Virus record (IMG/VR): IMGVR_UViG_3300009151_000135
Span: 1-42,569 of that record
From: a virus
Length of the DNA stretch: 42,569 nt
Strand: one strand, 5' to 3'
The position numbers and the translations under genes were made by a program. Positions 8,382-23,512 of the stretch are shown piece after piece. Under the pieces are notes generated by a model that was not told the origin of the DNA, did not search any database, and saw nothing but the letters and a program-made list of their open reading frames with translations. Every line of letters begins with the position of its first letter. Position 1 is the first letter of the stretch.

Positions 8382-8407
8382 AAAAAGGCGCTTGAAGCGC
8401 CTTTTTT
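8382..8407 (+). terminator. Rho-independent terminator after fibre cluster
   Basis: A GGCGCT stem pairs with AGCGCC across a TGA loop, extended by A5/T5 pairing and followed by six T residues. It separates the fibre genes from the halogenase/oxygenase operon. Confidence 0.9.
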
Positions 8408-8429
8408 AACGACTGCAAAACTCTGTGGT

Positions 8430-8437
8430 TATAAATA
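8430..8437 (+). promoter_or_regulatory. Late promoter TATAAATA for the halogenase/oxygenase operon
   Basis: This perfect T4-type late octamer lies in the short gap after the terminator and 24 bases before the halogenase ATG. The predicted start at about 8443 leaves a 19-base leader containing AAAGGA. It implies late transcription of the operon through 18067. Confidence 0.8.
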
Positions 8438-8461
8438 CTCGGCAATAGCAAAGGATAAATT

Positions 8462-10078
8462 ATGCAGATAAAAACGGTAATGATTGTTGGTGGTGGTAGT
8501 TCTGGCTGGATGACTGCGGCCGCATTATCAAAACTATGCCCTCATTTAAAAGTGTCATTGGTAGAGTCTATAAAGATAGGTACTATTGGAGTGGGTGAAA
8601 GTACTCTTGGACATATCAATAAATTTTTTGGTATGCTGGGATTGAAGGATGAAGACTGGATGGCAGAATGCAATGCCACTTACAAAAATTCTATCCGCTT
8701 TACCAACTTTAGAGAAAACGACGGCACTCATTTTGAATATCCGTTCAGTGCGGGGCTGGATTTTACTGACAAGCCTGCGGGCACTGGTGCATGGTCAGAA
8801 CTGGCAACGCTATATCCCGAAGAATACACTCCTGAGACTTTTGCAGAATTTTATTGTACTGGTAACACGATGCTGGCCAAATACAACAAACAGACCCGCG
8901 ATGAAAAAGGTATTTTGCGTAACTATGATTTTGCATGGGATACTGCATATCATCTTGATGCACAATTGCTAGGACAGTATTTGAAAAATAAAATTGCAAT
9001 TCCCAACGGAGTTACACATCTTGATGCAGAGATTCATTCTTATAAAAAAGATTATCTTGGCAATTTAACGGATATTTTGTGTGTTGATGGTACTGTACTC
9101 CGTGCAGATTTGTTTATTGACTGTACTGGATTTAAATCAATGCTGTTGGAAGGATGGATGGGATCAGAATTTAGATCGTTTGACAAGTATTTGGCAAATG
9201 ACAGTGCATGGGCCTGCCGTATTCCTTATGAAGATCGCGAAAAAGAAATGCACAATATTACTGACTGCCATGCACTTGGTAATGGATGGGTATGGAACAT
9301 TCCCTTGTGGAATCGCATAGGAACAGGCTATTGCTATTCATCCAAGTTTACCACAGACGAAGAAGCCAAGCGTGAGTTTCGCAATCACTTGGCAACTACT
9401 GGATCAAAAGAACGTGCAGAAAATGCAGAAATGATGCATGTTAAGATCAAACACGGCCGCAGACGTCGTGCATGGGTGCAGAATGTGGTAGGAGTTGGAC
9501 TGAGTTATGGATTTGTCGAACCACTTGAGTCAACTGGATTGCTGACTACACATGAAAATATTATCAAACTTGTGGAGCAGTTGAATCGCCGTCAGGGATA
9601 CATAACTCGTACAGAAATTGAAGGCTTTAACTTTTCTGTTGAGAACGAAGTATTACGTTTTAGAGATTTCGTTAGCCAACACTATGCACTTTCTCAAAGA
9701 ACTGATACTCCATATTGGCGCTGGTGCACCCAGTTGCATGAGTATTGCCCAGACCAGATGGGAGACTACATGTTGACTCAGGCACAGTATCCCAACTTGA
9801 TGGCTAACATTGTTGGTAATCAACGCTATTACGGTGAGTATGTGGGCAATATGTTTATTGCGGGTGGTATGGGGGTTAAGTCTATCTCGACCAAAGAACT
9901 AATCTTTTTTAATGGTACTAGACAGGCTAAAACGCTCAAACAAGAAGAAATTGGATACACTAAACGTCGATACGAAGAATATAGAGATTATGTAATTGAT
10001 TACGTGAAAACATTACCAAGTCATTATGCATTCTTGAAGAAAGAAATCTATGGCGGAAAAGATGACCACGCTGTGTAA
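8462..10078 (+). CDS. Flavin-dependent halogenase (tryptophan halogenase family) 1
   Basis: The 538-residue protein matches the length and motif order of flavin-dependent halogenases, which use FADH2, O2 and halide to halogenate aromatic or other substrates. The FAD motif GGGSSGWMTA starts at residue 10. The catalytic lysine equivalent to Lys79 of PrnA is K75 (NATYK). The W276-V-W278-N-I-P motif that keeps the family from acting as an ordinary monooxygenase is intact. E353-P-L-E356-S carries the conserved glutamate. All key residues are present, so it should be active if FADH2 is supplied; no flavin reductase is visible nearby. A cyanophage member of this family, VirX1, is a known halogenase. 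This gene opens the late operon and overlaps the next gene by 29 bases. Its substrate is unknown. Confidence 0.93.
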   Translation: MQIKTVMIVGGGSSGWMTAAALSKLCPHLKVSLVESIKIGTIGVGESTLGHINKFFGMLGLKDEDWMAECNATYKNSIRFTNFRENDGTHFEYPFSAGLDFTDKPAGTGAWSELATLYPEEYTPETFAEFYCTGNTMLAKYNKQTRDEKGILRNYDFAWDTAYHLDAQLLGQYLKNKIAIPNGVTHLDAEIHSYKKDYLGNLTDILCVDGTVLRADLFIDCTGFKSMLLEGWMGSEFRSFDKYLANDSAWACRIPYEDREKEMHNITDCHALGNGWVWNIPLWNRIGTGYCYSSKFTTDEEAKREFRNHLATTGSKERAENAEMMHVKIKHGRRRRAWVQNVVGVGLSYGFVEPLESTGLLTTHENIIKLVEQLNRRQGYITRTEIEGFNFSVENEVLRFRDFVSQHYALSQRTDTPYWRWCTQLHEYCPDQMGDYMLTQAQYPNLMANIVGNQRYYGEYVGNMFIAGGMGVKSISTKELIFFNGTRQAKTLKQEEIGYTKRRYEEYRDYVIDYVKTLPSHYAFLKKEIYGGKDDHAV

Positions 10079-10862
10079 AACTCTGTTTGGGTGGATGCGT
10101 AGAGAATCAAAACCTTTTATTCGCTTTTACTCGCTAGAGCCAGGTACTGCAACTCTATTTCCTATTGTAAAATCATCATCTATCGATCGTAATTTTTTAT
10201 CAAATATTCAACCGGGTGATCAACCAGAAACACTATCTTCAAAAAACTGCCCCGGCATTAAGAAGATTGTGTCAAGCGGTTGGATAGTACCTGCCCCAGC
10301 AGACTTTACAATAAACACCAACGGTGACGGAATTAGTTTTGACTGGGCTCAACCGTATCGATTCAGTAAAATCACTCCTGGCATGGAAGCGTATGTCAAC
10401 AGTCATACTCGCAGTCAAACGGAACCATTGCTCGATGACGAAACTTCTACATTGAAAACTGTAGTGAAAGTTGAAACTCCTTGGCGAATTGAAGCAAGTG
10501 ACGATACAGTACTGTTACTAATGCCAGTGACATACAACAACGAAAGCAGATTCTCGGCAGCTACTGGAATATTAGATCCCAAATACGGACACGTTGTTAA
10601 TATTCAATTATTCTGGAAAGTGTTAAATGGAGCAACTACCGTAAAAGCAGGAACACCGTTGTGTCAAATTATTCCAATTTCAAGAAAAGCCTTGTCCGGA
10701 TCGTTTTATGATGTTACAATAGATACAGCTACTGATAATGACACTAAAAAAGAACACGAATTTAACTATGCATCAAACTGTGCATTTTTAGCAAATGATT
10801 CGCTGTCTTCAAGACTAAGCCGTGTAATAACTATTTTAAATAAGTACAAGACTAAAGGATAA
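10050..10862 (+). CDS. DUF6065-like protein, copy 1
   Basis: The 270-residue protein is clearly paralogous to the minus-strand gene at 23509-24339. Shared blocks include RFYSLEPGTATLFPIVK, GWIVPAPADF, VKVETPWRIEASDD, PVTYNNESRFSAATGILDP and VKAGTPLCQIIPISR. The order of motifs (a CPxIK region, a GY/GW-xxxxAPxDF strand, an ETPW segment, a GTPLxQ-PIS segment) recalls DUF6065, a beta-rich family of unknown function; this is from memory and needs a profile search. It sits directly after halogenase 1, and its paralogue lies beside the second halogenase group. ATG codons at 10050 and 10062 are both possible starts; the paralogue aligns from about residue 12. A carrier, adaptor or substrate-recognition role is only a guess. 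Confidence 0.6.
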   Translation: MAEKMTTLCKTLFGWMRRESKPFIRFYSLEPGTATLFPIVKSSSIDRNFLSNIQPGDQPETLSSKNCPGIKKIVSSGWIVPAPADFTINTNGDGISFDWAQPYRFSKITPGMEAYVNSHTRSQTEPLLDDETSTLKTVVKVETPWRIEASDDTVLLLMPVTYNNESRFSAATGILDPKYGHVVNIQLFWKVLNGATTVKAGTPLCQIIPISRKALSGSFYDVTIDTATDNDTKKEHEFNYASNCAFLANDSLSSRLSRVITILNKYKTKG

Positions 10863-10865
10863 CCT

Positions 10866-11117
10866 ATGAACTACAAAGAACAACTTCAAACCATCATCGT
10901 AAAAATTACCGAGCAAAAAGAAGGTGCTAGCGCAGAACTTGCTAAATTGGAAGAAGAGTTTGCTAACGTGAAATTAAATCCGTATGGCATCACAGCCATT
11001 GATTTTGCTAAACGTCAAGAACTCAGCACAGATGTTCTAAAAATGGAAGGCGTACTCATGGGTTTACAACTTGCATTAGAAACATTTGACGGAGCTCAGC
11101 AAGGTGATCCAGCTTAA
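10866..11117 (+). CDS. Small coiled-coil protein, unknown function
   Basis: This 83-residue acidic, helical protein has a heptad-like N-terminal half (EQKEGASAELAKLEEEF) and no Cys. AAAGGA is placed 6 bases before the ATG. It lies between the DUF6065-like gene and the first oxygenase and overlaps the likely start of the latter by 14 bases, so it is part of the same operon. It could be an oligomerisation or adaptor peptide for the neighbouring enzymes. No family is recognised. Confidence 0.6.
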   Translation: MNYKEQLQTIIVKITEQKEGASAELAKLEEEFANVKLNPYGITAIDFAKRQELSTDVLKMEGVLMGLQLALETFDGAQQGDPA

Positions 11118-11691
11118 GAATGGCGGCTTATTTTTATTTCCTCCAGATGTTTGGAAATTCAAGTACGATTTTAATTTTGAAGAATTAAAACCAAAGATAG
11201 ATCATTTGTTGAACATTACTGAGAATAACTCAGAACTTGAATCAGGCGATGCTCTATCTACTGTTGCATTGGACGAAAGTATGCAACCACATTCGTGGGC
11301 GGAGTTGGCACATTTTCAAAACTGGTTAGGAGAAAAAATTGCTCTTATCCGGAGAGAAAATGCATTCAACTACACACGTTCTGAAGTATCCAGATCATGG
11401 GTCAATCGTCACGGGTTTGGCGGCGAAACAATTGAACACAATCATAATCAAACTACATTCGTAGTAACATGTTATCTTCAGTTACCACCTGATTCGGGAT
11501 TTATTGAATTCAAAGACCCGCTGGAATATCATAAAACTCTTTACCCTATAATTCCTGAAGAAAGTTCTTATCAGGCAGTGCCTTGCGAAACTAATGATGT
11601 ATTGATATTTCCTGGATATATGCGTCATAGAGTGCAACAAAATAAAAACAAGACCGACGAACGACTTGTTCTAACGCTCAATATCAAATGA
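11104..11691 (+). CDS. 2OG-Fe(II) oxygenase family protein 1
   Basis: This 195-residue protein has the layout of the small phage 2-oxoglutarate/Fe(II) oxygenases of the 2OG-FeII_Oxy_5 type: the iron-ligand region H112-N-H114 followed by a strand (TTFVVTCYLQ), a late strand with LIFPGYMRHRV giving the distal H175, and R187 in DERLVLTLNI, which would bind 2-oxoglutarate. I chose the GTG at 11104, which has GGAG nine bases upstream; a TTG at 11086 would add six residues but lacks a ribosome site. It overlaps the coiled-coil gene by 14 bases and ends in ATGA with the next gene. Likely a hydroxylase acting on protein or carbohydrate; the substrate is unknown. Confidence 0.8.
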   Translation: MIQLKNGGLFLFPPDVWKFKYDFNFEELKPKIDHLLNITENNSELESGDALSTVALDESMQPHSWAELAHFQNWLGEKIALIRRENAFNYTRSEVSRSWVNRHGFGGETIEHNHNQTTFVVTCYLQLPPDSGFIEFKDPLEYHKTLYPIIPEESSYQAVPCETNDVLIFPGYMRHRVQQNKNKTDERLVLTLNIK

Positions 11692-12485
11692 GAGAATTCA
11701 AAGTTTGCTATCCTGATGCCAACAACATCAATAAAGTTCTTAAACTCAAACCCATTAAGGACTTCAATGTCAAGTATGTAAAACTTGACAAGGAAATCGG
11801 GTATTGGGTGTCGGATCACCCGTTTATTGACAACGGTTTTGATATCTTTAGAGAATTAATAGCTTCATTTCCTATACAGAAAGACAATAATCATCCTGAT
11901 AATATGGATCCCAACCCATTTGATACCATACATGTACCCGAGTGGGTCAGTGGAAATATTGTCTCAGTGGTTGAAGAATTTTATCGCATGAGCAACACAA
12001 AAACTATCTTTGTACCGCAACTGCATGAATGGGGTAATGTTTATTTCAAAGCAAAAGCCCGCCCCATAACCTGCTGGCGAATTCCACATATTGATTATAT
12101 ACATGGCTTGGTTGCAAATTTATGGTTTACAGATCATGATATTACAGACAGCGGAACCAAATTGTATCACTACACCGGCAAGATGTATAACGAAATTTAC
12201 GACTTTCAGCAAGATACTGATCATCCAAGATACAAAGAATGGCAACAGTTGGCTGACAAACCTACTCGCGCAGATGCTTGGTTTAATATTCCCGATGAAG
12301 AATTACGAACTTGGGGATTTGAATGTGTAGGCATTGCCCCAACCAAAGAAGGCACAATGACCTGGTACAATTCAAATGTTTGCCACCTTGCATATATTTC
12401 TGAAAAAGTAGATTTTAGATGGAGTCATACATTTGCATTTAGCCATGAAACACACCCTAGTACTATGGGAGATTTGTTTAGATGA
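11688..12485 (+). CDS. Probable 2OG-Fe(II) oxygenase-like protein 2
   Basis: The 265-residue protein is longer than its neighbours. It carries an HxD element H134-I-D136 in the context RIPHIDYIHGLVANLWFTD, an intermediate GTKLYHY strand, a late H233 (MTWYNSNVCHLAYI) and R244, in the order and spacing of the double-stranded beta-helix oxygenases. It is too divergent for me to place in a named family with certainty. It overlaps both neighbours by the four bases ATGA, so its translation is coupled to theirs. The expected activity is hydroxylation or a related oxidation with 2-oxoglutarate. Confidence 0.7.
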   Translation: MREFKVCYPDANNINKVLKLKPIKDFNVKYVKLDKEIGYWVSDHPFIDNGFDIFRELIASFPIQKDNNHPDNMDPNPFDTIHVPEWVSGNIVSVVEEFYRMSNTKTIFVPQLHEWGNVYFKAKARPITCWRIPHIDYIHGLVANLWFTDHDITDSGTKLYHYTGKMYNEIYDFQQDTDHPRYKEWQQLADKPTRADAWFNIPDEELRTWGFECVGIAPTKEGTMTWYNSNVCHLAYISEKVDFRWSHTFAFSHETHPSTMGDLFR

Positions 12486-13105
12486 ACTATGATTTATATT
12501 TTCCAACTCCCATATGGTGGGAGGATACCAATTTTGATACCGAAGACATGCTTAAACTATGTTATTCAGTAAAAGAACAAGATCCTATTGGAAGAAAATT
12601 AAGCAATGACGGTGGCTGGCAAAGCAAAGACTTTAGGCCTGGAAAATACCCCGAGCTAAAAGTCTTAGAAGATAGAATAATGGCGCAGGCACAGCAATGT
12701 ATACGTGATTTTGGATTTGATGAAAATTCATGTTTTCCTGTGTTAGAGAATATATGGCTCAATGTCAACGGCAAGCACAATTCCAACATGGTCCATATGC
12801 ATGATGCATCGTTTGTGTCGGGCGTATTTTACCTAAAGGCTCGCCCCGGGCAGGGTAAAATTACCATGTATAAAAATATGATGCAAGATTTTGCCACAAT
12901 GTCATTTGCAAATTTAGAAAAATTTACTCAGATCAGCGCATCTGCAATCAGCTATGATCCATTTACTAGTAGGTTGATCATGTTCCCGGGATGGTTGCCT
13001 CACGGAGTATCTGCTAACGAGTTAGACGAAGATCGAGTTTCACTTTCATTTAATGTAAAAATAATTAGGACCGACGATGAACGCTATAGGCCAACGATTA
13101 GTTAA
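12482..13105 (+). CDS. 2OG-Fe(II) oxygenase (2OG-FeII_Oxy_5 type) 3
   Basis: This 207-residue protein is the clearest member of the phage-type small oxygenase family. It has H105-M-H107-D108 followed by SFVSGVFYLKARPGQGKI, then LIMFPGWLPHGV with H174, and R185 in DRVSLSFNV. The opening YFPTPIWW is also typical of this family, in which proteins start with a short phrase naming the N-terminal strand. It overlaps the preceding gene by four bases and the next by 29, where TAGGA inside this gene serves as the next ribosome site. Probably a peptidyl or small-molecule hydroxylase; the substrate is unknown. Confidence 0.85.
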   Translation: MNYDLYFPTPIWWEDTNFDTEDMLKLCYSVKEQDPIGRKLSNDGGWQSKDFRPGKYPELKVLEDRIMAQAQQCIRDFGFDENSCFPVLENIWLNVNGKHNSNMVHMHDASFVSGVFYLKARPGQGKITMYKNMMQDFATMSFANLEKFTQISASAISYDPFTSRLIMFPGWLPHGVSANELDEDRVSLSFNVKIIRTDDERYRPTIS

Positions 13106-13802
13106 CGAGACCAATCTTCTATACGAGGATAAACCGCATTATTTTAAAAACTTATTACCAGGTGTAAAAGAAATGCTGACCTGGGCTGATGTTGAAAAAT
13201 GTGCTAACAACCCTGCCCTTTATAATTTTGAAATGATTGGTAAAGATAATATCAAAATTGAAATTCCAATGCATAAAAAAGCATGGGTATTTTCTAAACC
13301 AGTGCAGGATAAGGCATTTATAGTGGATCATATCAACAAAGGCAACGGTTTTGTCATCATGGACTATGGGTTTTACAGTGAAAAGACCAATGAACTACTA
13401 AAAATACTTGAAACAATCTATGATGTAAATGGTGCTATCCACGTGTATGGCGGACTTGCTGATGCAAAGTCATTCTGGATACACGAGGATTATCCGTCTA
13501 ACTTTATTTTTCAAGCAGAAGGTAAAACTAGATGGAAAGTGTACAACAATCGGATTTCTGCCATGTATAGAACTGGCACAATGAATCATAAATTAAAACA
13601 TCAAGACCTTGACTTGGCATTCGATGTGGTACTTGAACCAGGTGATGCAATATACATACCATCCAGAGCATACCACATTGCAGAACCAATGGGACAGCGA
13701 TTGAGTATGAGTGTTCCGTGTTGGACTAGATTGCCTACAGATGATCCCCGCGAAATGAATGACAGAAACAATTATAGGATTAACTATGACAGAAATATTT
13801 AA
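13077..13802 (+). CDS. JmjC/cupin-type 2OG oxygenase 4 (ribosomal-oxygenase-like)
   Basis: The 241-residue protein differs from its neighbours and resembles the cupin/JmjC hydroxylases such as bacterial YcfD. The metal-binding H136-E-D138 stands in FWIHEDYPSNFIFQAEGKTRW, close to the family's HxD...FxxQxxGxKxW pattern. A basic residue follows on the next strand (K154), and LEPGDAIYIPSRAYHIAEP provides the distal H200. Known relatives hydroxylate ribosomal proteins or other protein side chains, so a protein substrate is the best guess for this member. It lacks the C-terminal winged-helix extension of full ribosomal oxygenases. Its end overlaps the start of the next oxygenase by 17 bases. Confidence 0.78.
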   Translation: MNAIGQRLVNETNLLYEDKPHYFKNLLPGVKEMLTWADVEKCANNPALYNFEMIGKDNIKIEIPMHKKAWVFSKPVQDKAFIVDHINKGNGFVIMDYGFYSEKTNELLKILETIYDVNGAIHVYGGLADAKSFWIHEDYPSNFIFQAEGKTRWKVYNNRISAMYRTGTMNHKLKHQDLDLAFDVVLEPGDAIYIPSRAYHIAEPMGQRLSMSVPCWTRLPTDDPREMNDRNNYRINYDRNI

Positions 13803-14373
13803 ACCAAGGGAGTACTCGGGGGGTGTGAATTTTGACTATCAGAAAGCCATGTATGCTTATCTAACTGATATCAAGTTTGACTGGCATTACATGGAAGATA
13901 CTACCACTGAAAAAACCAATCTTCCACAATATTCTACCCCAGCATTTGGAAATTTATTATACTATTCACAGCACGAATCAAATCCGCACTACGAATTTTT
14001 TAAACCGCTGATTGAAGCATTGGAACAAACCGCTGGATTTAAAATTAAAAAACTGCTGAGAATGCGAGCTGGTATGTTGCTCAACACCAAATATGTACTG
14101 CCAGGTATGCCTTACAAATATAATACGCCTCACATAGATTATGATATTGATCATTATACAGTAGTGTATTATGTGAACGAGTGTGACGGTGATACTGTGG
14201 TATTTCGTGAAATTGCTCCTGCTGAAAAATACTATAGCCTGCACAAGTGTACCCCACACCAAGGAAAGTTCTTGTTGTTTAACGGGCGGCATTATCATGC
14301 AAGTACCTGTCCCAAAGTGTACACCAAGCGTATTGCTATCACAATCAATTTTACTGCTGATATAGATGGATAA
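13786..14373 (+). CDS. 2OG-Fe(II) oxygenase family protein 5
   Basis: With the ATG at 13786 (AGGA six bases upstream; an ATG at 13759 is in frame but has no ribosome site) the protein has 195 residues. H116-I-D118 lies in TPHIDYDIDHYTVVYYVNE, followed by CDGDTVVF, then GKFLLFNGRHYHAST with H171, and K181-R182 in the last strand. The pattern HID...YYVN..DGDT is shared with the ninth oxygenase at 16285-16893, so the two are paralogues separated by three other genes. It belongs to the prolyl-hydroxylase-like 2OG superfamily by motif. Substrate unknown. Confidence 0.8.
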   Translation: MTEIFKPREYSGGVNFDYQKAMYAYLTDIKFDWHYMEDTTTEKTNLPQYSTPAFGNLLYYSQHESNPHYEFFKPLIEALEQTAGFKIKKLLRMRAGMLLNTKYVLPGMPYKYNTPHIDYDIDHYTVVYYVNECDGDTVVFREIAPAEKYYSLHKCTPHQGKFLLFNGRHYHASTCPKVYTKRIAITINFTADIDG

Positions 14374-15073
14374 TTTGTTTTTAAATAAATTCATAAACAC
14401 CAAAAACTTGAGTAGTTCAGAGTTTATTAAATCTCACGACATTAAAAATCGGTTCCTGTATCCATATATGCCGACCATTGTGATTGATAATTTCTATAAC
14501 GATCCTAATTTATGGAGAGAATTTGCGTTAGATCAAAAGTTTTTCAAAGGTGATCGGGGTAACTGGCCCGGCTTGAGAACTGAATTGTTGCATAAACTAC
14601 ACTATGATCTATTTAAAATCACGTTGAAAAAAATATTATTTGTTTTAAAAGATTACGGAATTACTCAAGTGGTCGAACTACAAACAGGATTCCAACTGAT
14701 AGCTGAAGAGTATGGGCGCGGCTGGGTGCATGATGATGATCCATCGTTTCAATATGCAGGCATCATATATCTAAGCAAGGACGCTCCAATTGGTTCCGGC
14801 ACTACAATATATGAAGACTCTGTGGACTTTGACGGAGATGTATATAACAAAATGTTTGAAACAGATGTTAACAATGCCTCTGCAGAAGATCGAGAAATAT
14901 ATGCAAAATACAGAGCAGAACAAGTGTCAAAATTTAAAAAAAGTATAGTGGTAGAAAATGTATACAATCGCTTTGTATTGTTTGATTCGCGTTGTTGGCA
15001 CAGTGCTGATAATTTTTTTGGTAGCACACCGGACGATACTAGATTAACGCAGGTATTTTTTATCAAACAATGA
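14366..15073 (+). CDS. 2OG-Fe(II) oxygenase-like protein 6
   Basis: The 235-residue protein starts after an 8-base overlap with its predecessor. Residues 38-50 read IVIDNFYNDPNLW, then FALDQKFF and WPGLRT, a signature shared with the next gene. The HxD element is H122-D-D124 in GWVHDDDPSFQYAGIIYL, followed by GSGTTIYED, a late W211-H212 and R226 (TRLTQVFF). The pattern resembles DUF6445-type proteins, which I recall as oxygenase-like but cannot verify here. It ends in ATGA with its paralogue. The enzymatic assignment rests on the triad order and context. Confidence 0.75.
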   Translation: MDNLFLNKFINTKNLSSSEFIKSHDIKNRFLYPYMPTIVIDNFYNDPNLWREFALDQKFFKGDRGNWPGLRTELLHKLHYDLFKITLKKILFVLKDYGITQVVELQTGFQLIAEEYGRGWVHDDDPSFQYAGIIYLSKDAPIGSGTTIYEDSVDFDGDVYNKMFETDVNNASAEDREIYAKYRAEQVSKFKKSIVVENVYNRFVLFDSRCWHSADNFFGSTPDDTRLTQVFFIKQ

Positions 15074-15681
15074 AAACATTAAAACAACCAATCAAGGTTA
15101 TTGATAACTTTTTTGAAGCTCCTGATTTATGGCAACACTATGCCCTGAAGCAACAGTTTGCTCGAGACAACAACTCAACTTGGCCCGGAACTCGAACTAC
15201 TACACTGGATCAATTGGATATGGAACTGTTTAATTCCGTTGCATCTACTCTCATTAGTCATACACACGGTAAACAGTTCTTTTCTCTCTTAAAGATAAAC
15301 TTTGCATCTGTTGACAGCAGTTATAATATTGGATGGATGCACCAAGACGAGCCGCAGTACAATGTTGCTGGCGTCATATTCTTGAATAAATTTGCTCCTG
15401 CCAATACTGGATTATCGTTTTACACAAAGGTTGCAGATAATAATCAAGACTACAACAGTTTGTTCTTTGAAGAATTAAAAGCTGATCCAGCCGATCGATC
15501 AGCGTTCGTTAAATTTAAAGAAGAACAACGTAGATTGTTCAAGCGGAATATGACTGTTGAAAATATTTTTAATAGATGTGTGATGTTTCCACCGGAACAA
15601 TTCCATGCGGCTGACGGATACTTTGGCAATACACTAGATGATGCTAGATTAACAATTAATTTTTTTGGAATTTCAATATGA
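15070..15681 (+). CDS. 2OG-Fe(II) oxygenase-like protein 7
   Basis: This 203-residue protein is a tandem paralogue of the preceding gene: VIDNFFEAPDLW, WPGTRT, then H91-Q-D93 in GWMHQDEPQYNVAGVIFL, GLSFYTK, F178-H179 and R193 (DDARLTINFF). It lacks the roughly 30-residue N-terminal extension of its neighbour. The pair probably arose by duplication and divergence inside the operon. Four-base ATGA overlaps on both sides indicate coupled translation. Substrate unknown. Confidence 0.75.
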   Translation: MKTLKQPIKVIDNFFEAPDLWQHYALKQQFARDNNSTWPGTRTTTLDQLDMELFNSVASTLISHTHGKQFFSLLKINFASVDSSYNIGWMHQDEPQYNVAGVIFLNKFAPANTGLSFYTKVADNNQDYNSLFFEELKADPADRSAFVKFKEEQRRLFKRNMTVENIFNRCVMFPPEQFHAADGYFGNTLDDARLTINFFGISI

Positions 15682-16292
15682 CATCGGCTTTTGGTCACTT
15701 TAGTAATTTTGGGTTTGTTAGAGATACAGTGCCACCAGAACTGCTCGATGAATTACAAACAGAAATCGATTCAATCGATTTAACAGAACCAATAAAAGAT
15801 AAACTGGCAGGCAATTTAGAGACTTCATACGTTCTTGAAAAATCAAGAACTAATTTGGAAAAGTTTGTATTGGGGTTGGCAAACGCATACTCTGCTGGGT
15901 TCGATGCAACTCAGACTGGTAAAAATCTCACAGGGGATAATTTATCTTTAAGATTGTTTTGGGTAAATTTTCAAAGAAAACACGAGTTCAATCCTATACA
16001 CATGCACGATGGTGATTTCAGCTTTGTGATATGGTTAAAAGTTCCGTATAAACTTGCCGATGAAGTGAATATGCCCCGGGCCAAAAATTCTAATATGCCT
16101 CGAGGTGGTATGTTTAGTTTTTTCTATACTAATATATTTGGTGAAATTCGAGAAGCTGAATTTCCTATAGACAAGTTATGGGAAGGGCAAATATTGCTAT
16201 TCCCAGCATGTTTACAACACATGGTATATCCATTTGCATCAACGGATGATGTGCGTATATCAATTTCAGGGAACATAAAAAGAAATGAATGA
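15678..16292 (+). CDS. 2OG-Fe(II) oxygenase family protein 8
   Basis: The 204-residue protein carries H108-M-H110-D111 in NPIHMHDGDFSFVIWLKVPY, a late strand QILLFPACLQHMVYPF with H181, and R193 in DVRISISGNI. It is close in layout to the third oxygenase (HMHD...LLFP...H...R) but has a longer insert between residues 124 and 168. Four-base and eight-base overlaps join it to its neighbours. Predicted to be an iron- and 2-oxoglutarate-dependent hydroxylase; the substrate is not evident. Confidence 0.8.
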   Translation: MTSAFGHFSNFGFVRDTVPPELLDELQTEIDSIDLTEPIKDKLAGNLETSYVLEKSRTNLEKFVLGLANAYSAGFDATQTGKNLTGDNLSLRLFWVNFQRKHEFNPIHMHDGDFSFVIWLKVPYKLADEVNMPRAKNSNMPRGGMFSFFYTNIFGEIREAEFPIDKLWEGQILLFPACLQHMVYPFASTDDVRISISGNIKRNE

Positions 16293-16893
16293 CATTATAG
16301 AAGTTGACAATATTATCCCGCTTGATTATCAGAATCATTTACTTGATACATTCACAGGCTGGGAATTTCCATGGGTCCTTAATAAGAATATGGTGTCGGG
16401 CGACGAGTGTTTTAAGAACATGTCAAACAATCCTCCGGGATTTAATCACTTCTTTTACGAAAAAAGTGCGCCAGTGAGTAATTTCTTTCAACTGGTGTAC
16501 CCGCTAGTATTAAGTATAACCAGTCAAGCAAAGGTACCCTTTAACAGACTATACAGAATGCGAGCCAATTTGACACTGGCAAATCAAAAATCGGACTCTG
16601 ATATGTTGATGCCGCACATTGACAGTTTCCACCCGCACTGGAATGCAATTTACTATGTGAATGACAGCGACGGAGATACTATTATTTTTAACGAAACCAA
16701 TGACGAGTTTGATCCGGGGCAAAAAGATATAGACAAAATTAAAAATGGTGAATTTACAATCAAACATAGAATTACTCCCAAGAAGGGTAAACTGATTGCG
16801 TTCCCAGGCAAATATTATCATACTGCAAGTTTCTGTAAAGAAGCAGACTATAGATGTTTAATCAATATTAACTTGGGAAATTTATTTGTATGA
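16285..16893 (+). CDS. 2OG-Fe(II) oxygenase family protein 9
   Basis: The 202-residue protein has H111-I-D113 in MPHIDSFHPHWNAIYYVND, SDGDTIIFNE, then GKLIAFPGKYYHTASF with H179, and R190 near the C-terminus. It is paralogous to the fifth oxygenase, sharing LYRMRA/LLRMRA upstream of the HxD, YYVN, DGDT and GRHYHA/GKYYHT. An eight-base overlap precedes it and an ATGA overlap follows. All expected ligands are present, so it is probably active. Confidence 0.82.
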   Translation: MNDIIEVDNIIPLDYQNHLLDTFTGWEFPWVLNKNMVSGDECFKNMSNNPPGFNHFFYEKSAPVSNFFQLVYPLVLSITSQAKVPFNRLYRMRANLTLANQKSDSDMLMPHIDSFHPHWNAIYYVNDSDGDTIIFNETNDEFDPGQKDIDKIKNGEFTIKHRITPKKGKLIAFPGKYYHTASFCKEADYRCLININLGNLFV

Positions 16894-17432
16894 CAGACTA
16901 CACACTATATCAGTCAGAATTTATTGCCAACAATCAAGATTTAATATTTGAAGATATCAATCGTGCCCACGATTTATTTAGAGAAGTATTTCCTAATCAA
17001 GACTCAACTTGGACTTATCACAAGTATAATATATTTGCGCTAACTGCGCCGTCAACAGCATTTTATCAAATATACACAGAATTGAGAAACTTGGTCAGAT
17101 CACAGTTGGGTAACGATAGGCCATTGTGGTTTCAAGCATGGATCAATTACCATCAACAATCCGAATTGTTAAAATGGCACGGGCACGAGTTTGATTATCA
17201 CGGGTATATTGCAATTGACCCCAAGAATACCAAGACAGTATTTGAAGGGTATGAAATTGTAAACAAACCAGGACAGATTTACTTTGGTCCAGGCTGGAGA
17301 GAACATATGGTGGAAGCAATCTCACCATTTCAAGGAGTTAGAACTACAATTGGGTTTGATATATTTACAACTCCGGATAACCGCCATGTAGCCCACCCTT
17401 ACACCAATATGAGTCTAATGCCATTGCTATGA
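16890..17432 (+). CDS. 2OG-Fe(II) oxygenase family protein 10
   Basis: This 180-residue protein is the shortest of the array. H97-G-H99-E100 lies in LLKWHGHEFDYHGYIAID, with TVFEGYEI following, then GQIYFGPGWREHMV with H139 and R151 in GVRTTIGFDI. The IYF-GPGW-x-EH pattern replaces the FPxxxxH motif of its relatives but keeps its position. It overlaps both neighbours by ATGA. Family-level function is likely; the substrate is unknown. Confidence 0.78.
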   Translation: MTDYTLYQSEFIANNQDLIFEDINRAHDLFREVFPNQDSTWTYHKYNIFALTAPSTAFYQIYTELRNLVRSQLGNDRPLWFQAWINYHQQSELLKWHGHEFDYHGYIAIDPKNTKTVFEGYEIVNKPGQIYFGPGWREHMVEAISPFQGVRTTIGFDIFTTPDNRHVAHPYTNMSLMPLL

Positions 17433-18067
17433 AACAAGATTACTATATTATCAAAAATGCTATCAGCAAAGAACTGGCTGAATTTATTGCTCTTGAGTTT
17501 AGCATGATGGAAACTACTTGCAAGCATTTGTATCCCGATGCTGATTTGTCAGATTTATGTAAAGGCACATTCGCTCGTTACAGTCCGCTAATGGTAGAAG
17601 CATTGTCAGTATCACTACAGCCCAAGATTGAACAAGCAGTTGGAATGAAATTGTTGCCAACATACTCTTATGCACGTATCTACTACAAAGACACTGATTT
17701 AAAATCCCATTTTGATCGTGCAAGTTCTGAAGTCACAGTTAGTGTGTGCCTACAACAAACAGCCACATGGCCCTTGTATGTAAAAAATGCCGAAGGAGTA
17801 ATCCACGCAATCAATTTGGAAGTGGGCGATGCTGGAATTTATTGCGGCCGCAAGCACGAACACTGGCGAGAACCTTTACAAGAAGAAGGTCAGCATGTTC
17901 AAGCATTTTTACAATACGTTGACGCTGAAGGTGACGATGCCTGGCTTAAATGGGATACTCGACCCTGTTTAGGGTTACCTTTTGAGTATGCCAGCCAGGC
18001 AATACAATCAGAATTAAGTCACATTAAGAATGTTAAAAACTTAATGGATTCTGTTGGTAAACTGTAA
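17429..18067 (+). CDS. 2OG-Fe(II) oxygenase family protein 11
   Basis: The 212-residue protein follows the prolyl-4-hydroxylase-like pattern: YSYARIYYKDTDLKSHFDR contains H94-F-D96, followed by the strand SEVTVSVCLQ, then GDAGIYCGRKHEHWRE with H145 and R147. Proteins of this type are common in marine T4-like phages. A helical C-terminal extension (residues 180-212) is not part of the core fold. It is the last gene of the plus-strand operon and abuts, end to end, the minus-strand gene at 18068 with no terminator between them. Confidence 0.83.
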   Translation: MKQDYYIIKNAISKELAEFIALEFSMMETTCKHLYPDADLSDLCKGTFARYSPLMVEALSVSLQPKIEQAVGMKLLPTYSYARIYYKDTDLKSHFDRASSEVTVSVCLQQTATWPLYVKNAEGVIHAINLEVGDAGIYCGRKHEHWREPLQEEGQHVQAFLQYVDAEGDDAWLKWDTRPCLGLPFEYASQAIQSELSHIKNVKNLMDSVGKL

Positions 18068-18283: not shown

Positions 18284-18305
18284 TTACTATCTCCTACGAT
18301 AAATG

Positions 18306-18313
18306 TATTTAGT
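18306..18313 (-). promoter_or_regulatory. Late promoter-like octamer ACTAAATA
   Basis: On the minus strand this octamer predicts a start near 18300, giving a 17-base leader with GGAG before the 71-residue gene. It overlaps the last codons of halogenase 2. Confidence 0.5.
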
Positions 18314-19853
18314 TTGTTTTATCCAGCCATTCTTCAATGGTCCAAAATGGCTCAACAAGAATCTTGTACTTGTCTCTGTTGATATTTAGTACTTTTTCTC
18401 CTACCTTGAGAAACTTTTCATTTGTTTTTGCTAAATTGGTGTGATCAAATACAGACAGCCCCTGCAACACCATGAGCCAAGCACTTGCAGAATATCCGTG
18501 ACAATACGGTTCAGGGCGATCGCTGTTAAAATATTCTCCCCAAGCAGTTAATTTTTCCTTTAAACTTGGAGGAATACGAAATTCGTCATATGCATGACTT
18601 TTCCAGAAGTCAGTGTCTCTACGTTGCCCTCTATAATGCAATGCTAGAAAGTCTCTAATATCTTCGGTAATATACCATATGCGATCGTTGAATCTCTTAA
18701 TTGTTTCAGTGGGATGGTTGGCTTCGTAAGGGCTCCAATAGTCCTGTAAACCAAACAAACTTTCAACAATAACTGCAATTCCGTTAGCTTCAAGCGGTTC
18801 TAAAAAGCCACTACTGAGTCCTATAGCAACAACATTGTTTTTCCAAGCGTTGCGCATCATGCCAGGGTCGAACTGAAAATTAGCAATTGGTTCTATCTTT
18901 TTATTGAATCGTAATTCAGCTTCCTGCACTGCTTGATCAAGTGTTATATGATCCGGATCATAAATGTATCCGTTGCCAGACCTGTTGCGAATATTGATGT
19001 TCCAACTCCAACCGTATTTCATAGCAGTGGCATTGGTAGTCACACACGGACAAGTTTCATCCCACCATGCCACAACTGCTCTGGATGGAAAATAACTGGT
19101 GGCATCAACAATTGGTTCTTTCAGTTGTTTACCCAACAGTAATCTTGCAAATCCTGAGCAATCAAAAAACCAGTCACCTTCTGCAACACGCCCATTGGTT
19201 AGTGTTATACTGGTAACGTCACCGTTGAGATCCTGCATGGTCTGCTGGAACTCGCCTTCTAATAAAGTGATACCCCGTTCCAGTCCTATTTTTTTAAGAT
19301 AGGCAGCGGTGCTTCTGCTTTCAAAATGCCACATGGGCACACATGGAATATCAGAGGCAGCTCCAAACGGTACTTTGTTCTCTTTGATAAAATAATTGGC
19401 ATAGAATGCGTCTGCTGTAGGAATACGGTTTGCCAATATGGTACGCATGTATCTATCCTTGGCGCTCTCGGCATTCATGAGGGACATCAAAGTTCCCACA
19501 GTCAATTCATCTCGATTTTCTGCAAAATAATCAGTCCAACCGTTGAGATATGGTGCATAATCAGTTTGAAGTGAATGAATAAATTCTGTGCCTACTCCAT
19601 TCCAGTCAGTGAACTTGCCACCCAACTTGGGTGTGGCATTAACCTGTCGAATAAAATCATTTATATCAATTCGTAAATGTTTTAATAATGTTACAAATGT
19701 AGTATTACCGCTTTCGCCTGCAATAATAGGCGGCTGATTAGGATTCTCAATAACAGTAACTTGTGCCCTGTGCCAATTGCGTTGGACGAACAGGGCAGTT
19801 AACCATCCTGCTGTACCGCCTCCTAATACAACAACTTTAGAATTTGTATACAT
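18309..19853 (-). CDS. Flavin-dependent halogenase 2
   Basis: The 514-residue protein has GGGTAGWL at residues 11-18, K76 in NATPKLGGKF at the PrnA Lys79 position, the family FDCSGF segment (residues 230-235) and LEPLEANG with E352 and E355. The tryptophan motif reads W282-S-W284-N-I-N, so the usual final Pro is Asn. It has the most divergent sequence of the four halogenases here: IIAGESGNTTF replaces the usual IGVGE segment. It overlaps halogenase 3 by 17 bases and is the last enzyme gene of the minus-strand operon. Substrate and halide preference are unknown; the altered motif and segment may change specificity. Confidence 0.9.
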   Translation of the reverse strand: MYTNSKVVVLGGGTAGWLTALFVQRNWHRAQVTVIENPNQPPIIAGESGNTTFVTLLKHLRIDINDFIRQVNATPKLGGKFTDWNGVGTEFIHSLQTDYAPYLNGWTDYFAENRDELTVGTLMSLMNAESAKDRYMRTILANRIPTADAFYANYFIKENKVPFGAASDIPCVPMWHFESRSTAAYLKKIGLERGITLLEGEFQQTMQDLNGDVTSITLTNGRVAEGDWFFDCSGFARLLLGKQLKEPIVDATSYFPSRAVVAWWDETCPCVTTNATAMKYGWSWNINIRNRSGNGYIYDPDHITLDQAVQEAELRFNKKIEPIANFQFDPGMMRNAWKNNVVAIGLSSGFLEPLEANGIAVIVESLFGLQDYWSPYEANHPTETIKRFNDRIWYITEDIRDFLALHYRGQRRDTDFWKSHAYDEFRIPPSLKEKLTAWGEYFNSDRPEPYCHGYSASAWLMVLQGLSVFDHTNLAKTNEKFLKVGEKVLNINRDKYKILVEPFWTIEEWLDKTN

Positions 19854-21342
19854 GTGGGTTTGCTCGTTGTTTAATTATTTCTAGTGCTTGTCTATGTGAA
19901 TAGAACGTGTCATTTTCATCACTTAGCTTGGTGGCTTTCATAAATTCATCAGTGTCTGCTGAGTGTGCTAACATATGAGCTTCATACTTGTCTCGAATAC
20001 TTGTATTATCAAACATACCCAGACCATGCATAACTTGACCATAATTTAAATATGAAAACAGTATCATGGGATGATTAAACAGATTAATGTTTGGATATCC
20101 TTTCTTGAAATAGTCTAAGTATTTTGCGTTAAATTCTGTAGGTACAATTTCATTTTTGCACCAACGCCAGAACTCACTGTTGTCACGTTTGGTAAAATAA
20201 TGTAGTTGTATAAAGTCTATAATATTTTCTGAAATAGTTTTCATATGTTTGTTATAGCGTTCGGCAGTTAGTTCTTCACCTCGTTCATAAAAGAACAAAT
20301 CAGGTAGCATCATAGATGCTTGCTGTATAGTAGTGCCAATACTGCTAGCTTCGAGCGGCTCGACAAATATACCGCTTAACCCAACCATAACACAATTTTT
20401 AATCCAGTAGTTTTCTACATAGCCTGCACTAAATTTAACCTTCTTACCAATAGTAAGTGTCTGATCAATGCCAAGATTATTTTTATAATGTTGTGAAACT
20501 TCATCAAACGCATGGGTCTCATTCATAAACTCATCGCAGAATACATAGCCATTGCCGTAACGCTCTTGCGTGGGTATGCGCCACACCCATCCACTGCTTA
20601 GGGCCGTTGCTTCCGTGTAGGAAGGTATAACTTCAGTGTAATCTGTTGGAAATGCAATAGCACTGTTCATAGGCAACTGCTTGGAACAGTCAACCCATTT
20701 AGCACCTAACTTGCTGCCAATAATTCTTTTGAATCCACTACAGTCAATATAAAACTCATATGCATGATGTGTACCGGTTACGTCAACTAGTTCTTTAACA
20801 TACCCATCTTCATCAAGAATGACATCTTCAACTTCAGTGTCTATAACTGTAATTTTTCTTTCTTTACACACTCTATGTAAGAAGTCATTGAGTTTATTAG
20901 TGTCAAAGTGATATTGACTTAATATATCATGTACCGGCTCAATATGCAGACCGTCTTGCGCCTTGCGCCACACGGTATCTAACGGATCCCAATCTTCACC
21001 AATCATACGCAACCAAGTAAATGGAAGTCCGTGTACTTTCGACACAGAACCATACTGCTCTGATAAACTATGGAAATAACTTTTGCCATCACCGTTCCAG
21101 TCAGTAAACTTAATACCTATTTTAAATGTAGCACCAGTTTCTCGAACTAACGAAAAAATATCAATATCCACGTGCCGCATAAACACACGCCAGTGCTCAG
21201 TTGATCCTTCGCCTACCCCGATAATACCTATCTTTGAACTTTCAATCATGGTGATTTTAATCTCTGGCCATGCTTTGCGTAGCATCAATGCGGTGACTAG
21301 GCCGCTAGTTCCGCCACCGAGTATACAAACTGAATTGATCAT
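19837..21342 (-). CDS. Flavin-dependent halogenase 3
   Basis: This 501-residue protein has GGGTSGLV at residues 9-16 (Leu in place of the usual Trp), IGVGEGSTEHW, K74 in GATFKIGIKF, the intact W252-V-W254-R-I-P257 and VEPLEASS with E328 and E331. It is closely paralogous to halogenase 4, sharing GEGSTEHW, FDxxKLN, KLGAxWVD, LPMNSA and HYFTxRxxxEFWRWCK. The two genes overlap by four bases, consistent with a tandem duplication. Expected reaction: FADH2- and O2-dependent halogenation; substrate unknown. Confidence 0.92.
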   Translation of the reverse strand: MINSVCILGGGTSGLVTALMLRKAWPEIKITMIESSKIGIIGVGEGSTEHWRVFMRHVDIDIFSLVRETGATFKIGIKFTDWNGDGKSYFHSLSEQYGSVSKVHGLPFTWLRMIGEDWDPLDTVWRKAQDGLHIEPVHDILSQYHFDTNKLNDFLHRVCKERKITVIDTEVEDVILDEDGYVKELVDVTGTHHAYEFYIDCSGFKRIIGSKLGAKWVDCSKQLPMNSAIAFPTDYTEVIPSYTEATALSSGWVWRIPTQERYGNGYVFCDEFMNETHAFDEVSQHYKNNLGIDQTLTIGKKVKFSAGYVENYWIKNCVMVGLSGIFVEPLEASSIGTTIQQASMMLPDLFFYERGEELTAERYNKHMKTISENIIDFIQLHYFTKRDNSEFWRWCKNEIVPTEFNAKYLDYFKKGYPNINLFNHPMILFSYLNYGQVMHGLGMFDNTSIRDKYEAHMLAHSADTDEFMKATKLSDENDTFYSHRQALEIIKQRANPHVYKF

Positions 21343-22841
21343 AATGCGTATTCTATTCCTTTTAATCGCTGTTTAACAAGGGCAATAGCATCCTTGTGTT
21401 TCATCCACCCATCTGTAGTAGAACTATGCATTTGTTTAATGTTGCTTTCACACCGCTCTCTATATTTTGCTCCGTATTGTGCATCGTATAACTGTTTAAT
21501 TTTAGCAGTATCAAACATTCTTAGCCCATGCATAACTTGTGTCCAGTTTAAACAATCATAAATTCTAAACAACGACATTAAACCGTCTTCTGGTAATACT
21601 ATTTGATTAATAAAATTTGTTTTAAAATTTTCTATGTTAGCTTTATTAAACTCTGTCATCTTTATATCATGTTTACACCAGCGCCAGAACTCTGTATCTT
21701 CTCGCTGTGTGAAATAGTGTAGCTGAATAAAGTCTAACACGTTTAGCATCATATCGTCAAATACTCTATTATACTCGTTAATTGTTGCAGAGTCATTACG
21801 ATGCCAGTTCCATAATCCAGCAACTAATAATCTTGATTGTTGAATAGTAGTTGAGATACTGCTAGCTTCAAGGGGCTCTACAAAGTTACTGCTAAGACCA
21901 ATACTTACACAGTTCTTGATCCATGCCTTGTTTACTCTTCCTGATACAAAGTTAATCTTTCTGCCAATATTAATAGTGTCTTTAAAATGTGTTTGTATTT
22001 CTGCGATCGCTTGATCTTCAGTAATAAATTGATCGCTGAATACGTATCCATTACCAAAGCGCCCCTGTACCGGACTGCGCCAGTGCCATCCACTGTCCAT
22101 GGCTTTCGATAATGTGTATACTGGTATGTCATCTTGATCAGTAGTTTGAAAGGCTACTGCACTGTTCATTGGTAAATGAGCCGACCAGTCAACCCACGTA
22201 GCACCAAGTTTGGATGCAATTACTCGTCTAAATCCGCTACTGTCAATAAAGAAGTCTGCAGAGTAGTGTTGATTATCAGAGCTAACAATTGATTTGACAA
22301 AACCAGCATCGTCTAAAACACAGTCTACAACTTCAGCTTCAACTATAGATATACCTCGTCCAGTACATAATTTTTCTAAGTATGCATTTAATTTTTCACT
22401 GTCAAAGTGAAACTGATAGTAATCAGTTAACGGTTCCGCCACCATGTTGTCTTCAAGGATCATCTTCCAGTGCATATCCTCAGCTTTTATACCGTCACCT
22501 ATTATTCGCATCATAGAGTATGCCGCGCCAGTATGTGGATCCATTCCGACATATCCTTCGGGTAAACTATGAAAATAGCTAGTACCGTCACCGTGCCAAT
22601 TTTCAAACTTAATACCTGTTTTAATAGTCGCACCGCAATGCTCAATTAATTCTATAAAACTAATACCAACTGCATTAGCAAATCGTGTCCAGTGTTCAGT
22701 AGATCCCTCTCCGACACCTATGGTTCCAATTTTGCTGGATTTGACCAAGGTAATATCAAGGTGCGGAATAGATGCCTTGAGGTACAGTGCATTCATTAAA
22801 CCAGCGTTGCCGCCACCTAGTACACAAATTGAGTTTATCAT
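21339..22841 (-). CDS. Flavin-dependent halogenase 4
   Basis: The start at the ATG at 22841 gives 500 residues and places GGGNAGLM at residues 9-16, matching halogenase 3; an in-frame GTG at 22892 would add 17 unlikely residues. K74 (GATIKTGIKF), the W252-H-W254-R-S-P257 motif (Ile replaced by Ser), and VEPLEASS with E322 and E325 are present. It is the first gene of the minus-strand halogenase operon. I see neither a clear ribosome site nor a late octamer in the 80-base gap upstream, so its promoter is unresolved. It probably arose together with halogenase 3 by duplication. Confidence 0.92.
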   Translation of the reverse strand: MINSICVLGGGNAGLMNALYLKASIPHLDITLVKSSKIGTIGVGEGSTEHWTRFANAVGISFIELIEHCGATIKTGIKFENWHGDGTSYFHSLPEGYVGMDPHTGAAYSMMRIIGDGIKAEDMHWKMILEDNMVAEPLTDYYQFHFDSEKLNAYLEKLCTGRGISIVEAEVVDCVLDDAGFVKSIVSSDNQHYSADFFIDSSGFRRVIASKLGATWVDWSAHLPMNSAVAFQTTDQDDIPVYTLSKAMDSGWHWRSPVQGRFGNGYVFSDQFITEDQAIAEIQTHFKDTINIGRKINFVSGRVNKAWIKNCVSIGLSSNFVEPLEASSISTTIQQSRLLVAGLWNWHRNDSATINEYNRVFDDMMLNVLDFIQLHYFTQREDTEFWRWCKHDIKMTEFNKANIENFKTNFINQIVLPEDGLMSLFRIYDCLNWTQVMHGLRMFDTAKIKQLYDAQYGAKYRERCESNIKQMHSSTTDGWMKHKDAIALVKQRLKGIEYAL

Positions 22842-22921
22842 AACCAGTTCTTCTCGAAGTTTTTTTGTAGTGTAATATATATCATTGTACACGCAGATGT
22901 TCTGCAGACCTGAAAGGAACT

Positions 22922-23512
22922 ATGTCCGAAAAGCAACTATGGCCTTTGTTTTCAAAGCCAATTTTTAAAACACACTTAGACGTTTCTAAAGTGGACTTGT
23001 CTAATATCAAATGGGCAAGGAACTATCAAAACTGGATTAGCGAATCTCAAAAAGTGCTTGACGATCCTGTATTAACTGACTTTGCCAATCAGATTTCAGA
23101 TAACCTTGTGGAATACTTTTACGGAATCATGGGTGCAAATCCAAATGTAAAGATGTATGTTACTGAAAGTTGGTTTAACAAAACAGAAAAAGGACAAAGT
23201 CATCATAGACATTGGCATCCTAACAGTATCTTATCAGGTGTAGTTTATCTTGACAGCGAAGGCGACAGCGGCCGCATTAAATTTATTACCAGCCAGTATG
23301 ACACAATTGAATACAATATTGTTGAGTCTAACTTGTATAATTCACGTAGTTGGTCAGTAGTTCCGGAAGCTGGTACTATGCTAATATTCCCCAGTAATGT
23401 AGAGCACATGGTTGAAGAGTACATTGGCGACAAACCGCGATTTAGTCTGTCGTTTAACACATTTATCAGCGGTGACATCAACGTAGATCCGTTGACTCGA
23501 CTTAAAATTTAA
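22922..23512 (+). CDS. 2OG-Fe(II) oxygenase (2OG-FeII_Oxy_5 type) 12
   Basis: The 196-residue protein opens LWPLFSKPIFKT, the usual N-terminal phrase of this family. It has H97-W-H99 in SHHRHWHPNSILSGVVYL, then TMLIFPSNVEHMV with H162, and R173 in PRFSLSFNT. AAAGGA lies before the ATG. Unlike the other eleven oxygenases it stands alone, divergent from halogenase 4 and convergent with the DUF6065-like gene, whose end it overlaps by four bases. No late octamer is visible in the short upstream gap. Family assignment is strong; substrate unknown. Confidence 0.87.
   Translation: MSEKQLWPLFSKPIFKTHLDVSKVDLSNIKWARNYQNWISESQKVLDDPVLTDFANQISDNLVEYFYGIMGANPNVKMYVTESWFNKTEKGQSHHRHWHPNSILSGVVYLDSEGDSGRIKFITSQYDTIEYNIVESNLYNSRSWSVVPEAGTMLIFPSNVEHMVEEYIGDKPRFSLSFNTFISGDINVDPLTRLKI

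Follow-up and report, generated by a model that had tools for sequence, protein, structure and literature searches.

The stretch of viral DNA analysed here (the window: 42,569 nt, IMG/VR record IMGVR_UViG_3300009151_000135, positions 1 to 42,569, to which all coordinates refer) carries a cassette of twelve 2-oxoglutarate (2OG) oxygenases and four flavin-dependent halogenases (FDHs) behind three tandem genes for predicted glycine-rich fibre tips. Our reading, to which we give about even chances, is that the cassette is a mobile module of late genes whose products hydroxylate and halogenate the receptor-binding tips of the phage itself. A more extended version, by which phages from no fewer than two distant T4-like lineages possess a transferable machinery for hydroxylating and halogenating, perhaps iodinating, their own tips at up to twelve sites, each specific to one enzyme, falls a little short of even. 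Gene content, catalytic residues, purifying selection, slot conservation, linkage, joint transfer and probable late expression were computed and form the basis of these proposals.

Linkage of the cassette with fibre tips

Three fibre-domain scans were made, overlapping in contigs and each limited to its best matches. In viral loci fetched only through the fibre domain, with a domain of the cassette type and at least 4 kb downstream, an FDH and 2OG oxygenases were present in 48/48 and 86/86 cases, 134 in all. With all sets pooled, an FDH was found in 214/214 loci and an FDH together with oxygenases in 211/214; these pooled loci correspond to 120 distinct tip proteins, or 69 clusters at 90% identity, and include loci fetched through a halogenase or oxygenase. 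Six loci with a diverged tip domain (profile score 79 to 95, against at least 190) had neither an FDH nor an array, and five of them have a weak match to p1787, the putative fibre chaperone. Outside the carriers, the fibre domain was absent in S-H38 and S-SCSM2R and weak in P-SSM2 and Syn30. Seen from the halogenase, 47/67 loci with an FDH of the VirX1 clade and at least 2.5 kb upstream had the fibre domain and p1787 upstream. The other 20 lie mostly beside fibre-like genes, namely independent PF21722 genes, collagen-like genes or phrog_15750 genes in tandem triplets that adjoin a long fibre. Since the halogenases of other clades in Syn1 and HTVC008M are not beside fibres, the fibre link is strongest for the VirX1 type.

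The gene order is equally regular. All ten cultured carriers examined have a long fibre, two or three glycine-rich tips, p1787, a halogenase and oxygenases in this order; across carriers, two to four tip genes and p1787 precede the cassette, with p1787 always between the tips and the halogenase. The same gene order was seen in about thirty IMG/VR contigs of the first scan. A survey of related phages, proposed along with the original prediction on this DNA, found the gene set conserved slot by slot: slot order, gene overlaps and one-to-one orthology are retained from near identity to about 35% identity. That prediction had also noted the number and linkage of the genes as not known to its author. 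They are not without precedent, as the collinear array is present in the cultured phages Syn9, Syn10 and S-CREM1, where its oxygenases are annotated, e.g., as DNA endonuclease V, minor coat protein or ferrochelatase, ten 2OG genes are known in S-CREM1 (PMC9964418), and 24 2OG oxygenase genes occur genome-wide in S-SCSM1 (PMC9602691). Shorter arrays of about three to seven oxygenases are found in P-TIM40, S-RIM44, Sf-FR1, Sf-CH3, S-WAM1, P-RSM6 and S-SZBM1. The window lineage and its marine relatives are set apart by the length of the array and by an extra convergent block of three halogenases. A larger record, IMGVR_UViG_3300028393_000019 (265,680 bases), includes the locus of the window with 100% protein identity where compared, and a megablast search of the region against phages gave no matches.

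The phage is T4-like, as originally proposed, with a terminase nearest to those of PA5oct-like jumbo phages and not of cyanophages. This terminase (37469-39070) has 51-52% identity to PA5oct-like Pseudomonas jumbo phages and a Sinorhizobium phage, against 34-36% to cyanophages; HalA, the first halogenase of the cassette, has 41-63% identity to Kyanoviridae (cyanophage) homologs, and D1, the gene behind it, up to 54%. As HalA and D1 are closer to the cyanophage versions than the terminase is, the fibre tips and the cassette were most likely transferred jointly between phage lineages. Descent from cyanophages is unsupported, given the affinity of the terminase and the fact that ten large relatives, of which some are fragments, lack a photosystem reaction-centre (Photo_RC) gene.

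The gap separating p1787 from HalA holds an intrinsic terminator and, after it, TATAAATA, a match to a T4-type late promoter; position 8430, from which the region had originally been drawn, is the start of this match and no gene start. The count of TATAAATA alone is not significant (two found, three expected). Its position is conserved, 32-40 nt ahead of the halogenase start in the gaps of 23 distinct relatives, and many other relatives have CTAAATA or NATAAATA at that place. A stem with a run of T occurs in 38/47 relatives' gaps of at least 60 nt, with 20 different stem sequences. The conserved promoter position and the varied terminator stems therefore indicate that the cassette is probably a late transcription unit of its own.

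Enzymes and other genes of the window

The features of the window that bear on the cassette are as follows.

32-4144: long fibre gene, upstream of the tips
5274-6125 (+): glycine-rich fibre-tip paralog 1; PF21722 (Gly_rich_2), Pfam E 3e-10; aligns with the tips of all carriers
6137-7000 (+): glycine-rich fibre-tip paralog 2; PF21722, E 6e-8; phrog_863, 'tail fiber assembly'
7011-7865 (+): glycine-rich fibre-tip paralog 3; PF21722; AlphaFold2 model with the Pam3 fibre 7YPX as best match in the PDB
7870-8364 (+): p1787, putative fibre chaperone; phrog_1787
8386-8408 (+): intrinsic terminator, GGCGC-TTGAA-GCGCC-TTTTTT, read directly from the sequence
8430-8437 (+): match to a T4-type late promoter, TATAAATA
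8462-10078 (+): HalA, FDH, VirX1 ortholog by best match and neighbourhood; PF04820
10050-10862 (+): D1, DUF6065-like protein; phrog_7084, PF19541 weak in 2/17 orthologs
10866-11117 (+): small helical protein with an invariant LNPYGIT core in the alignment
11104-11691 (+): O1, 2OG oxygenase; PF13759
11688-12485 (+): O2, 2OG oxygenase; phrog_1644/3234, DUF6445-like
12482-13105 (+): O3, 2OG oxygenase; PF13759
13077-13802 (+): O4, JmjC_2-type oxygenase; PF08007
13759-14373 (+): O5, 2OG oxygenase; phrog_274 family
14366-15073 (+): O6, 2OG-type oxygenase; DUF6445
15070-15681 (+): O7, 2OG-type oxygenase; DUF6445, paralog of O6
15678-16292 (+): O8, 2OG oxygenase; PF13759
16285-16893 (+): O9, 2OG oxygenase; phrog_274 family
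16890-17432 (+): O10, HxH-type 2OG oxygenase; phrog_2696 and weakly phrog_81, triad and arginine, hhalign 95% to O1
17429-18067 (+): O11, oxygenase of predicted prolyl-4-hydroxylase fold (AlphaFold2 and Foldseek); HxD...H conserved
18309-19853 (-): HalB, FDH; PF04820, K76 conserved
19837-21342 (-): HalC, FDH; PF04820, K74 conserved
21339-22892 (-): HalD, FDH; PF04820, K91 conserved
22922-23512 (+): O12, detached 2OG oxygenase; PF13759
23509-24339 (-): D2, paralog of D1; phrog_7084, 37% identity to D1

The twelve oxygenases (eleven overlapping genes at 11104-18067 and one at 22922-23512) and four FDHs that had been proposed from the open reading frames are confirmed at their places by Pfam, PHROG and fold evidence. 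The oxygenases belong to several families (PF13759, DUF6445, JmjC_2, phrog_274 and the prolyl-4-hydroxylase fold) and are not copies of one gene, as had also been claimed. O1, O3, O8, O12 and O4 score above the Pfam cut-off, O6 and O7 match DUF6445 (PF20043), O5 and O9 are slightly below the cut-off (PF13640/PF13759) and strong in PHROGs, and O2 and O10 match PHROG profiles only. O11 matched no oxygenase profile in the Pfam/PHROG scan and hit only phrog_2954/3531, labelled 'ferrochelatase'. Its AlphaFold2 model, built with orthologs (pLDDT 85), has the Pseudomonas putida prolyl-4-hydroxylase (E 8e-9), PHD2 and PBCV-1 vCPH as best Foldseek matches, and this predicted fold rules out a ferrochelatase. 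The double-stranded beta-helix is thus taken from model and Foldseek for O11 and from profile families only for the remaining oxygenases. HMM searches of each gene and the structure search for O11, both suggested beforehand, hence support the oxygenase and halogenase families. The fold groups of O11 and O4 are known for protein hydroxylation. Misnomers lie on several of the 2OG families in PHROGs (phrog_1644 'minor coat protein', phrog_274 'DNA endonuclease V', phrog_2954 'ferrochelatase'), and the same names stand in RefSeq phages; in the window, the slots concerned are O2, O5, O6, O7, O9 and O11.

The order HxD/HxH...H...R, on which the oxygenases had originally been recognised, stands for the metal residues in all slots of the window and is less clear for the arginine in O11. 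The metal pair is HxD in O2, O4, O5, O6, O9, O11 and the O7 of the window lineage, and HxH, not HxD, in the five slots O1, O3, O8, O10 and O12. The distal histidine is conserved across orthologs in all slots but the marine O7, and an arginine follows it at +8 to +14 in O1-O6, O8-O10 and O12; O11 has no conserved arginine at that spacing. In the marine lineage (L018, L021, L022, L027, L031), O7 is shortened and has lost its metal residues and arginine, with its N- and C-terminal motifs and its place kept; judged by these residues, it is a retained pseudoenzyme beside the active paralog O6. The dN/dS values, 0.02-0.15 where computable against two near relatives, indicate strong purifying selection. 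Chance matches or pseudogenes are excluded by the Pfam/PHROG scores, the triads and these dN/dS values.

All four FDHs match PF04820 over nearly their full length (E 3e-105 to 3.2e-89). Their catalytic lysine (K75 in HalA, K76 in HalB, K74 in HalC, K91 in HalD) and downstream glutamate, originally described as intact, are 100% conserved among orthologs. The GxGxxG motif is present in each (GGGSSG, GGGTAG, GGGTSG and GGGNAG, respectively), and the WxWxIP motif is intact in HalA (WVWNIP) and HalC (WVWRIP) and deviates in HalB (WSWNIN) and HalD (WHWRSP). In a search of PDB sequences, HalA matched VirX1 (6QGM) with 647 bits over residues 2-532, the second-best halogenase reaching 265 bits. The source phage of VirX1 is Syn10, where equal scores assign it to gene CPUG_00131, whose slot in the cassette is that of HalA. 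By full-length best match and shared gene neighbourhood, HalA is the VirX1 ortholog. To our knowledge, VirX1 was the first viral halogenase to be characterised, and we know of no biological substrate for it. It forms a trimer, its active site is large and accessible, and it prefers iodide; the review that describes it names neither a biosynthetic context nor a native substrate (PMC8407142). HalA is tandemly duplicated in some relatives (e.g., L008), and two consecutive FDHs are likewise present in Syn9 and Syn10. The 265.7-kb relative has a fifth halogenase, at a great distance from the cassette (G001:C1:209303-210685).

Besides halogenases and oxygenases, the cassette holds the D1/D2 pair and the gene for the small helical protein. 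D1 is ruled out as a homolog of the O genes (hhalign near 0%). A precursor of the kind found in ribosomally made, modified peptides (RiPP-like) was also rejected, as the conserved block of the small gene sits in mid-protein and p1787 has no leader/core pattern. D1-like genes were seen at L267 and L327 too, which share with L300 a VirX1-clade FDH adjoining three tandem phrog_15750 paralogs; these are fibre-tip-like and have a C-terminal RIYxxHxxFxGxLI-like motif. Searches of PDB sequences with profiles of the fibre, D1, O2 and O11 gave weak, chance-level matches only. No RNA families or tRNAs were found in the window. Further downstream, the tail sheath protein (29625-33143) has 1172 aa, which exceeds the length expected for the usual T4-like sheaths, and the end of the gene for a deoxynucleoside monophosphate kinase is overlapped, on the other strand, by an HNH-like open reading frame (29193-29519).

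Candidate substrates of the cassette

The three tip paralogs have a common N-terminus and, at the C-terminus, a glycine-rich domain (PF21722). The model of paralog 3 (pLDDT 66) has the Pam3 fibre 7YPX as its best PDB match (E 2e-6) and also matches the Bxb1 tail tip. Together with the long fibre upstream, the PF21722 domain and this structural match predict that the glycine-rich genes encode receptor-binding-type fibre tips. In Pam3, the glycine-rich domain forms a hypervariable tip that binds the receptor, and the fibre gene is accompanied by one for a chaperone (PMC9608196). A chaperone role of p1787 is called putative here because only its position fits, by analogy with Pam3 gp25; p1787 had no match among PDB sequences, including those of known tail-fibre chaperones. 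In the carrier alignment, the mean conservation is 0.80 for the glycine-rich tip domain versus 0.58 for the N-terminus. That the tip domain is conserved, contrary to the hypervariable tip of Pam3 (PMC9608196), supports the proposal that the tips are the substrate. Six positions (E134, E143, Y167, N192, Q196 and H197) are conserved in carriers and changed, as a weak signal, in four cassette-free sequences, while carrier-conserved glycines are mostly common to the cassette-free relatives. The comparison of reactive with other positions (Fisher p 0.012) relies on four cassette-free sequences only and is too weak for naming modified sites; such differences fit modified side chains. Collagen was rejected as a substrate, as the 'collagen-like' label in S-CREM1 sits on a glycine-rich protein without GXY repeats.

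From this context we infer that the enzymes act on protein and that this protein is the tip. Three tandem tips and the putative chaperone are followed by the terminator, the late promoter, HalA, D1 and up to eleven 2OG oxygenases, to which the convergent block contributes HalB-HalD, O12 and D2. Late in infection, the enzymes would act on side chains of the fibre-tip domain: the oxygenases would put hydroxyls at separate sites, and the halogenases would put halogen on aromatic residues, e.g., Tyr167, before or during chaperone-assisted trimerisation. The conservation of the oxygenases slot by slot suggests that each has its own site. The benefit to the phage may be a chemically hardened tip or one tuned in its specificity.

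Several points weigh against this proposal. No direct evidence for a modified residue is available, the confidence of the tip model is only moderate, and linkage to fibres can also reflect gene shuffling at a fibre hotspot. HalB-HalD fall outside the VirX1 clade, and at eight VirX1-clade loci no neighbouring gene is clearly a fibre gene. Syn1 and HTVC008M have FDHs of other clades with 2OG genes away from fibres, and such pairs can therefore have other roles. The paper on the S-SZBM1 virion reports detection of the long fibre (ORF 52), and the tips (ORFs 48 and 49) are unnamed in its text; tips that are modified or poor in protease sites could account for this.

Another possibility is a role in small-molecule chemistry, in which the enzymes would synthesise or decorate an antibiotic-like secondary metabolite or a polysaccharide; such a role has been proposed for the S-SSM6a cluster and for the PrnA of Syn9. 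Free tryptophan is the classical substrate that FDHs chlorinate. A wide range of small aromatics is accepted by VirX1 (PMC8407142), and the halogenase/2OG/cupin cluster of the jumbo cyanophage S-SSM6a was interpreted in this way (PMC7824862). However, the genes of the 42.6-kb window include no carrier protein, ligase, synthase, transporter or carbamoyltransferase, nor a non-ribosomal peptide or polyketide synthase, and the cassette is probably late and tied to fibre tips instead of metabolic genes. Furthermore, twelve non-redundant oxygenases for one product would be extreme. We thus consider a small-molecule product unlikely.

The target could instead be a protein or glycan of the host surface, or the receptor of the fibre, e.g., for blocking superinfection or unproductive re-binding of progeny, in which case fibre and cassette would travel together through the same receptor. 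The linkage evidence applies equally to such a target, and pairs of FDH and DUF6445, known from TonB-receptor loci, occur in bacteria as well: in several proteobacterial genomes (the G011-G020 set), DUF6445, the family of O6 and O7, lies directly beside an FDH, with up to 17 FDH matches per genome, often several in a row. Therefore, the pairing exists also in cells. The nearest cellular homologs of the VirX1 clade have at most 40% identity, and HMMs of D1, the fibre tip and p1787 found no matches around 80 cellular loci. We noticed neither a secretion signal nor a membrane anchor in the enzymes, though no systematic search was made, and it is the conserved tip domain itself that differs between cassette-bearing and cassette-free phages. 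A host-surface target therefore seems quite improbable to us.

Incidental linkage, in which a fibre-side hotspot gathers unrelated auxiliary genes and the oxygenases have differing roles (control of 2OG levels, DNA repair, modification of nucleotides or tRNA), is improbable to the same degree. Many scattered 2OG genes do occur in cyanophages (14 PF13759 matches in P-SSM2), and 2OG/NtcA control (PMC3037559) or DNA repair (PMC2984593) has been suggested for them. Against this, slot order, overlaps and orthology are kept across lineages with distant terminases, and no cassette-type fibre domain with enough downstream DNA lacked an FDH. Finally, another virion protein (long fibre, baseplate or capsid) is a very improbable substrate: long fibre genes do lie directly upstream in carriers, and late expression is probable, but the cassette tracks the tip domain tightly, and hardly any carrier locus has a match to the window's long fibre (32-4144).

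Modification of the tips remains our preferred reading, and the strict linkage points to the glycine-rich fibre tip as a substrate that can be tested, both for VirX1-type halogenases and for the cyanophage 2OG oxygenases, many of which have no assigned function. The locus had originally been read as a multistep tailoring pathway; distinct, intact and selected enzymes in one-to-one slots are consistent with that idea, which missed the VirX1 orthology and the link to fibre tips. If true, our proposal would provide a native substrate for VirX1-type viral halogenases and a new kind of virion protein maturation. Host recognition by phages could then rest on residues that are produced by enzymes and not encoded, and these fibres would escape any proteomic search in which such masses are left out of account. 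The assignments would also correct the PHROG labels now spreading to many oxygenase genes. What appears new is the fibre-tip context of the cassette; its parts are known, and databases have contained the array from the deposition of Syn9 onward. We found no report of a link between the cassette and a receptor-binding tip in the openly accessible literature, most subscription papers, including those on VirX1 and Syn9, being outside this search.

Comparison with known systems

The closest likeness is to the gp38-gp54 region of Syn9 and Syn10 and to ORF67-80 of S-CREM1, which have, like the window, tips, p1787, one or two FDHs, D1, the small gene and nine or ten 2OG genes. They differ from it in the placement of O10 elsewhere, fewer oxygenases, misleading gene names and the lack of a HalB-HalD block. 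VirX1 occupies the same slot as HalA with full-length orthology; whereas VirX1 was studied as an isolated biocatalyst, HalA is described here from its sequence. The S-SSM6a cluster is likewise a viral mix of FDH, 2OG and cupin enzymes, but it has carbamoyltransferases and phosphatases and was read as a secondary-metabolite system (PMC7824862); S-SSM6a is absent among the matches listed for D1, O4 and p1787 in phage records. Multi-FDH loci of Caulobacter, Sphingomonas and Colwellia resemble the families of the window in having several FDHs in a row and, in several genomes, DUF6445 adjacent to an FDH. Unlike the window, these bacterial loci have no match to D1, the tip or p1787 around them, and their identity to the VirX1-clade query is at most 40%.

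On the fibre side, Pam3 gp24/gp25 and the gp38 adhesin of Salmonella phage S16 share the glycine-rich receptor-binding tip with the window, which has an adjacent putative chaperone gene. No modifying enzymes are described for Pam3 (PMC9608196), and in contrast to its hypervariable tip, the tips of the window are tandem paralogs with a conserved domain.

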